Origin: Tahibacter soli
Lineage (GTDB): Bacteria > Pseudomonadota > Gammaproteobacteria > Xanthomonadales > Rhodanobacteraceae
Reading direction: 5' to 3'
Assembly (NCBI RefSeq): GCF_025717065.2
Contig: NZ_JAOVZO020000003.1
Coordinates: forward strand, 620,001 to 684,000
DNA: 64,000 bases
Shown here: in pieces, positions 32,513 through 33,916 of the stretch
Layout of the letters: the number at the start of each line of letters is the position of its first letter
Position numbering within the stretch: position 1 is the first letter of the stretch
Notes under the pieces: model-generated
What the model was told of the DNA's origin: nothing
Seen by the model: only the letters and a program-made list of their open reading frames with translations
Databases searched by the model: none
Made by a program: the position numbers and the translations under genes

Positions 32513-33136
32513 ATGGCCTTGAGCACACGTTCGCGCACGGTACTAACGCTGTATTCGGCCCGCGATAGCGTCCATTGCCATCGCGTCAGGCTGGTTCTCG
32601 CCGCCAAGGGCGTCAGCTACGATCTCGTGCTTGTCGATCCGGCCAAGCCGCCCGAGGACCTGTCCGACCTGAACCCCTACAACAACGTACCGACGCTGGT
32701 CGATCGCGACCTCGTGCTGTACGAGACCGGTGTGATCAGCGAGTACCTCGACGAGCGGTATCCGCATCCGCCGCTGATGCCGATCGATCCGCTGTCGCGC
32801 GCACGGCTGCGCCTGGCCATGGTTCGCCTCGAACGCGACTGGCTGCCGCTCGCCGAGCAGTCGGCCGGCACGTCGAAGACGGCGGAAGCGTCGCGCAAGC
32901 GCCTGCGCGAGAATCTCGTTTCGGCGCTGCCGCTGTTCAAGGCGTCGAAGTTTTTCCTGAACCCGGAAATGAGTCTGGCCGACTGCGCGCTCGCGCCGCT
33001 GATCTGGCGCCTGCCGAGCATCGGCGTCGCGTTGCCGCGCGAGGCGCACGCGATCGTCGACTACGGCGAACGCATCTTCCGCAATCCCGGATTCACCCGC
33101 AGCCTTACCGCCGAAGAGAAGCTACTGCGTGACTGA
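32513..33136 (+). CDS. sspA: Stringent starvation protein A
   Basis: 207 residues with the GST fold but lacking catalytic GST function. It starts with LTLYSARDSVHCHRVRLVLAAKGV, followed by LNPYNNVPTLVDRDLVLYE and GVISEYLDERYPHPPLMP, all characteristic of SspA. SspA binds RNA polymerase and modulates sigma70 promoters in stationary phase and acid stress. The ATG at 32513 follows a GGGGGAGAGG ribosome-binding site. The sspB start overlaps its end. The pet-sspA-sspB order is common in gamma- and betaproteobacteria. Confidence 0.94.
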   Translation: MALSTRSRTVLTLYSARDSVHCHRVRLVLAAKGVSYDLVLVDPAKPPEDLSDLNPYNNVPTLVDRDLVLYETGVISEYLDERYPHPPLMPIDPLSRARLRLAMVRLERDWLPLAEQSAGTSKTAEASRKRLRENLVSALPLFKASKFFLNPEMSLADCALAPLIWRLPSIGVALPREAHAIVDYGERIFRNPGFTRSLTAEEKLLRD

Positions 33137-33548
33137 CGACAAGACCGGCGCGGCCGGCATGACCTCGAACCGCCCGTACCTGTTGCGCGCGATCTACGAC
33201 TGGATCGGCGACAACGGCATGACGCCGTATCTGCTCGTCGACGCGGCGTGGCCCGGCGTGCTCGTCCCGCCGCAGGCCGCGAAAGACGGCCGCGTCGTTT
33301 TGAACATCGCGATGCGCGCCGTGGTCGGGCTCGATCTCGGCAAAGAGTGGGTGCGATTCAACGCGCGCTTCGGCGGCGTCAGTCATGCGGTCGAAGTGCC
33401 GGTCGGCGCCGTGCTCGCGATCTACGCGCAGGAAAACGGGCAGGGCATGATGTTCCCGGCCGAGGGCGCGCCGCCGCCGTCCCCGCCGTCGCCCGCGCCG
33501 ACGGCCGACGCCGACGCGCCGCCGAAAAAGGCGGACACCTTCGCGTGA
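33129..33548 (+). CDS. sspB: ClpXP adaptor SspB, apparently truncated by a frameshift before the ClpX-binding tail
   Basis: 139 residues in the zero frame. The ssrA-tag-binding core is intact: NRPYLLRAIYDWIGDNGMTP, RVVLNIAMRAVVGLDLG, VRFNARFGGVSHAVEVPV and AVLAIYAQENGQGMMFP. A Pro/Ala linker follows and the frame stops at ADTFA. Family members end in a short basic-hydrophobic ClpX-binding motif (E. coli ends ALRVVK). Here that motif, GGHLRVIK, is present at 33530-33556 in the -1 frame, directly after AAAAAG. The start may be the GTG at 33129, overlapping sspA by 8 bases, or the ATG at 33159. Without the tail the adaptor should bind ssrA-tagged substrates but deliver them poorly. Confidence 0.9.
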   Translation: MTDDKTGAAGMTSNRPYLLRAIYDWIGDNGMTPYLLVDAAWPGVLVPPQAAKDGRVVLNIAMRAVVGLDLGKEWVRFNARFGGVSHAVEVPVGAVLAIYAQENGQGMMFPAEGAPPPSPPSPAPTADADAPPKKADTFA

Positions 33549-33556
33549 TCAAGTAG
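33525..33556 (+). other. Frameshift site and out-of-frame XB tail of sspB
   Basis: The zero frame reads CCG AAA AAG GCG and stops at TGA 33546-33548. Shifting -1 after AAG (33530) gives Gly-Gly-His-Leu-Arg-Val-Ile-Lys and a TAG at 33554-33556, directly abutting the convergent stop of the DUF3301 gene. AAAAAG resembles the slippery core of programmed -1 sites (A AAA AAG in dnaX), here with G instead of A at its first position. It may be a programmed shift, a true mutation, or a homopolymer sequencing error. Confidence 0.75.
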
Positions 33557-33916
33557 CTACGGAATCCGCGGCGCGAGGTACGTGACGTTGCCGACCGTCG
33601 ATGTCGGCGGCGGCTGGCGCAGCGGCAGACTGAAGTTTTCGAGTTTGCCGGCGCGCAGCACGAGCGTTCCGCGGTGGCGGTCGTGACCGTCGGTGCTGAC
33701 GTCGAACCCGTACTCGCGGCGCAACCCCGGCTGGCCGTTCTGGGCGCGCACGAAGCGGATGCGGCGCAGGCCGACCGACTGGTCCAGCAGCTGCAGGTCG
33801 GCGCGCGCGCACAGCTGGCGCGCGACGTTGGCGGCGCGGTCGCGCGAACGCACGGCGTCGTGCCAGATCAGCGCTACGGCGGAAACGAGGACGAGCAGGA
33901 TCAGCGATTCGAGCAT
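33557..33916 (-). CDS. DUF3301 family membrane-anchored protein
   Basis: 119 residues. One N-terminal transmembrane segment (MLESLILLVLVSAVALIWHD) is followed by AANVARQLCARADLQLLDQSVGLRRIRFVR, the highly conserved DUF3301 block with its invariant Cys. A beta-rich tail follows (LRREYGFDVSTDGHDRHRGTLVLRAGKL). Function of the family is unknown. The start is the ATG at 33916 that opens the membrane segment; the frame continues upstream without support. It converges on sspB. Confidence 0.85.
   Translation of the reverse strand: MLESLILLVLVSAVALIWHDAVRSRDRAANVARQLCARADLQLLDQSVGLRRIRFVRAQNGQPGLRREYGFDVSTDGHDRHRGTLVLRAGKLENFSLPLRQPPPTSTVGNVTYLAPRIP

Follow-up and report, generated by a model that had tools for sequence, protein, structure and literature searches.

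A one-base shortfall, probably an assembly error, places the ClpX-binding tail of sspB out of frame in a Tahibacter soli genome

Introduction

In Escherichia coli, SspB that lacks its C-terminal tail is either inert or competes with direct recognition by ClpX. The −1 frameshift site of dnaX reads A AAA AAG and is accompanied by an upstream Shine-Dalgarno (SD) sequence and a stem-loop, and runs of A are natural sites of slippage. The tail of SspB (PF04386), an adaptor of ClpXP, is the XB motif that binds the zinc-binding domain of ClpX (PMC12373786). Gene-breaking indel errors are known to occur in draft assemblies (PMC12007338).

Here we analyzed a stretch of 64,000 nucleotides from Tahibacter soli (contig NZ_JAOVZO020000003.1, positions 620,001 to 684,000), referred to as the window, in which a first-pass annotation made from the sequence alone had placed the ClpX-binding tail of SspB in the −1 frame and had offered three options: programmed −1 frameshifting, a recent mutation, or a homopolymer sequencing error. 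Coordinates are those of the window unless a contig is named. The source genome (G000; 6.65 Mb, 23 contigs, 99% complete) was compared with seven congeners, which are called sisters below.

Results

The zero-frame sspB ORF lies on the forward strand (33129–33548), begins with a GTG start codon at 33129, encodes 139 amino acids, and ends in APPKKADTFA. Its core matches the Pfam profile for SspB (PF04386; E 2.0e-32; 114.5 bits against a cut-off of 27) over profile positions 2–122 of 156. Immediately upstream is an open 207-amino-acid ORF on the same strand (32513–33136), which overlaps the sspB start by 8 bases and which, from its usual position and look, we take to be sspA. The last zero-frame codons of sspB are AAA (33525–33527), AAG (33528–33530), and GCG GAC ACC TTC GCG, followed by the stop codon TGA (33546–33548). 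Comparison with the seven sister tails located the XB tail, GGHLRVIK, together with its TAG stop (33554–33556), at 33530–33556 of the forward strand in the −1 frame, and the sspB of this assembly has no XB tail at its in-frame C-terminus. GGHLRVIK plus a stop is identical in four of the seven sisters, which excludes a chance occurrence. The −1-frame tail is thus confirmed, and the sequence agrees with the first-pass annotation, which had the zero frame stopping at ADTFA and GGHLRVIK with a stop in the −1 frame. In its core domain, its canonical tail sequence, and its place directly after an sspA-like ORF, the locus resembles described SspB; it differs, in this assembly alone, by the one-base shift of its tail. 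The genome contains a single SspB profile match and no second copy, and a duplicate gene elsewhere was accordingly rejected. The expected partners are encoded as well, namely a ClpX with a zinc-binding domain and a tmRNA whose tag, ANDDNYALAA, we take to be similar to the AANDENY tag of E. coli.

The tail is in frame in all seven sisters, where it reads KKGGHLRVIK, KKGGHLRVVK, KKGSHLRVIK, or RKGGHLRVIK. Three of the sister sspB ends equal those of named Tahibacter loci (T. caeni, L040; T. harae, L039; T. aquaticus, L042), three others equal those of metagenome-assembled genomes (L041, L043, and L044), and that of the sister G001 equals none. A contig search covering the best 80 of 107 relatives found the tail in frame in 78 of 78 uncut loci, and in the other two (L045 and L056) the contig ends short of the tail. 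SspB is present in 145 of the 147 genomes of a family sample. The tail is in frame in 37/37 of the family loci L002–L038 and in 33/33 of the uncut loci among L119–L152 (34 fetched, with L146 cut), and in 74 further family genomes the SspB profile match extends to position 155 or 156 (profile length 156) and contains no stop. The sisters, contig loci, and family loci overlap and are not independent samples; among all genomes examined, the out-of-frame tail is unique to this assembly. Aligning sister sspB genes for linker indels had been proposed in the first-pass annotation, which had also named LRVIK in frame in relatives, with one base different in the linker, as the arrangement pointing to an assembly error. 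All seven sisters have that arrangement.

Relative to the sisters, DNA and frame-aware alignments show the stretch at 33519–33531 of the forward strand, which reads CCGCCGAAAAAGG, to be one base short. A MAFFT alignment with five sister loci placed the one-base gap a few bases 5' of the A run, in a CCGCC stretch, a frame-aware aligner placed the short codon at 33523, and protein similarity (ADAPPKK compared with SDSEAPAKK and similar) indicated that the zero frame is still valid to about APP. Because the gap in the DNA alignment falls upstream of the A run, the exact position within about 33519–33531 is not fixed, and it is possible that the shift coincides with the AAAAAG run. The first-pass annotation had put the break directly after AAAAAG; the tail is indeed out of frame there, but the place of the missing base can be given only as this interval. 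A perfectly paired 5-bp G+C hairpin, CCGCC-GAAAAA-GGCGG (33519–33534), has the A run in its loop and could favor a template slip or a sequencing artefact there.

Comparison of 264 kb around sspB with the sister stretches revealed a second break, in ihfA (G000:C3:689232-689530; positions 5232-5530 of L159), which lacks one base at an A7 run and lies 36 kb from sspB and 5.2 kb past the end of the window. The frame is lost after LRKK at about G000:C3 689,395, the protein being out of frame from residue 58, and the gene is intact in the three sisters examined (G001, G005, and G002). The himA model matched ihfA in two parts, each in its own frame. All five of its matches in the genome fell below the cut-off, with the three outside ihfA scoring lower. 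One of these three is an HU gene (C20:413476) that had been listed with a stop inside its himA match; it is intact, the stop being the end of the gene itself.

The frequency of such breaks was estimated with a frame-aware protein-to-DNA scan, led by G005, of ORFs conserved between two sisters, which covered 163 ORFs and 165,043 aligned bases of G000. The four regions scanned (49, 65, 37, and 12 ORFs) gave 10, 6, 5, and 3 called events. Of these 24 events, 22 were set aside by inspection, mostly from printed context alone, on the grounds that the event lay before the likely start codon, in a divergent C-terminus, in an antisense or non-gene-like ORF, or in N-terminal read-through. Some set-aside events fall in ORFs that are not gene-like, so the 163 ORFs include non-genes. 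The two events judged real, sspB and ihfA, are both one base short at or beside A runs, and no break was judged real in the 114 ORFs of the other G000 regions. When G001 led the query of region 1 (46 ORFs), seven events were called in G000, from which again only sspB and ihfA were kept. Homopolymer runs of at least five bases in the aligned sequence of regions 1 and 2 number 47 for A/T and 22 for G/C, and none of the 22 G/C runs is broken. At 68% G+C, N-terminal read-through ORFs and antisense ORFs abound, and they had caused numerous false calls in earlier frameshift scans. Three sites, whose gene names are our presumptive labels, were considered separately: a grxD/short-chain-dehydrogenase-like junction at about 44259 was checked in detail and set aside, an rpmI-rplT junction at about C3 685,300 was examined in detail and not counted as a break, and dnaX at about C20 396,047 is open and was not counted.

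The same inspection of printed context was applied to events in three sisters. G005 gave 7 events in 151 ORF tests, none judged real and one, in the dnaX tail, unclear; G002 gave 12 events in 136 ORF tests, none judged real and one unclear (residue 282 of a 384-amino-acid ORF); and G001 gave 11 events in 59 ORF tests, four of which were judged real (a uvrB-like gene, a purE-like gene, and two others). The difference between G000 (2/163) and G005 plus G002 (0/287 ORF tests) is not significant (Fisher p 0.13). With 90% of the genome taken as coding, two breaks in 165 kb correspond to about 73 per genome (95% interval 9–262), an estimate derived from two events on the same contig, 36 kb apart. 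In the single-contig G001, apparent one-base breaks, several of them near G or C runs, were seen in the C1 stretches L163–L176 (four judged real in 47 ORFs), which suggests that the G001 assembly is error-rich.

Both breaks appear young. Compared with G001, the 51 out-of-frame sense codons contain no amino-acid change and 19 silent differences, divided between ihfA (43 codons, 14 silent base differences) and sspB (8 codons, 5 silent). The ihfA segment differs from G005 and from G002 in one codon each, the last (a stop here, Q there), and the eight codons of the sspB tail have no amino-acid change relative to four sisters and one relative to each of the other three, with silent sites differing. 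Neither out-of-frame segment therefore looks like one that has spent a long time without selection. For sspB, this bears out the first-pass annotation, which had argued against long-standing decay from the survival of the tail. Both mutS and mutL are open in the genome, and loss of mismatch repair as a cause of real A-run deletions was rejected on that ground, although an open frame is no proof of activity.

Discussion

From the comparison of sequences, the assembly is probably (roughly 0.65) one base short in the sspB linker because of a homopolymer-type sequencing or assembly error. The relatives are intact at both sites (7/7 sisters for sspB and 3/3 examined for ihfA), and a further break of the same kind lies nearby. 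Tens of young frameshifts would need a mutator, yet mutS and mutL are open, which makes an assembly error the simplest explanation, and we infer that the missing base was misread in sequencing or assembly and was not lost by mutation. The indel errors of draft assemblies described in PMC12007338 are similar in that genes fall one base short by homopolymers, conserved genes are hit, and relatives are unaffected; the density here is low by comparison. Several observations weigh against an assembly error: A5 is a short homopolymer, the G/C runs of regions 1 and 2 are unbroken, the genome-wide estimate comes from two events on one contig with none judged real in the 114 ORFs elsewhere, 22 of the 24 shift calls were discarded by inspection, and the difference from G005 and G002 is not significant. 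Of the three options in the first-pass annotation, recent mutation and sequencing error both stand, with error favored by the in-frame relatives and the ihfA break, and the programmed shift is unsupported.

A real and very recent one-base deletion in this strain, leaving an SspB without its XB tail, is the less likely of the two but a distinct possibility. A young mutation predicts just such an undecayed out-of-frame segment, the SspB core is intact, its ClpX and tmRNA partners exist, and natural slippage at A runs is established. If the break is real, the SspB core would bind ssrA tags with no tethering to ClpX; with both partners present, tagged proteins would presumably be bound by a tail-less SspB but not handed on, and such a protein would then be inert or, by competing with direct recognition by ClpX, inhibitory. 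The difficulty is that ihfA, 36 kb away, has a break just as young and that mutS and mutL are both open, so that two independent real losses are less likely than a common assembly cause.

Programmed −1 ribosomal frameshifting at G AAA AAG (33524–33530, forward strand), which would give tethered and untethered SspB, is very improbable. A −1 slip after AAA AAG would yield KKGGHLRVIK, the end found in sisters, and the run belongs to the A_AAG class, the tetramer most prone to shifting in E. coli (PMC4066793). By the definitions in that paper, the site contains a Z_ZZN tetramer (A_AAG only) and no X_XXZ_ZZN heptamer. Tetramers without a stimulator averaged 0.147% against 0.112% for controls with no motif, whereas with an added IS3 pseudoknot six tetramers gave 0.26% to 5.6%, A_AAG first (PMC4066793). 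Looking for a downstream stem-loop or SD-like stimulator, as the first-pass annotation had advised, returned only ordinary downstream folds, computed without pseudoknots (z −0.70 and −0.50 relative to shuffled sequence), and no GGAG, AGGA, or GAGG in 33491–33560. The genome has a tRNA-Lys(CTT) gene, which is expected to lower slippage on AAG, since a tight AAG-reading tRNA is thought to reduce it (PMC5009743); slippage is not precluded thereby, as IS elements of many species with such a tRNA still use A_AAG (PMC4066793). None of the relatives examined shares the arrangement: the tail is out of frame in 0/7 sisters and in none of the other uncut loci, and the run itself varies, the sister codons being AAGAAA, AAGAAG, CGCAAG, or AAAAAG. 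With all uncut loci of the relatives examined in frame, programmed −1 shifting is not conserved, and conserved frameshifting was rejected.

The first-pass annotation had also called the run close to the dnaX site. Both sites do have the lysine codon pair AAA AAG at their junction, but the first base is G here instead of A, such that only the A-site tRNA re-pairs fully and the P-site tRNA has no fully cognate re-pairing. The sspB site further differs in being unconserved and without a conspicuous stem-loop or SD, and in that the relatives need no shift. Literature on SspB, ClpX, and frameshifting, surveyed by title, included no title concerning an SspB frameshift. In the sister G001, alone among the seven, sspB (L007, C1:1816377-1816715) has the full A AAA AAG at the same lysine codons with its tail in frame, and a −1 slip at this heptamer would remove the tail.

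As improbable as programmed frameshifting is the idea that in this lineage the A-run losses are real and tolerated because ribosome or RNA polymerase slippage restores the frame in sspB (AAA AAG) and ihfA (AAA AAA). By this account, the protein of the sisters would result from a −1 slip at either break, and the cell would hold SspB and IHF-alpha each in a full-length and a truncated form. Transcript slippage is described on runs of nine A or T, longer than the A5 and A7 here (PMC5009743). Least probable of all is that sspB decayed long ago into a pseudogene without a tail, which would fit a frame broken in the assembly but was rejected given the conserved SspB core and tail codons that encode nearly the same amino acids as in the sisters while silent sites differ.

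The out-of-frame end of sspB most likely represents no new control mechanism. Most likely, the SspB of this organism is an ordinary one whose XB tail is in frame; its core would bind ssrA-tagged proteins and its tail would tether them to the zinc-binding domain of ClpX. If both breaks were real and rescued by slippage, this genome, large and high in GC, would offer an unusual example of bacterial recoding. If the break is an assembly error, it is of little import beyond a caution that conserved genes, sspB and ihfA among them, may look truncated in draft genomes.
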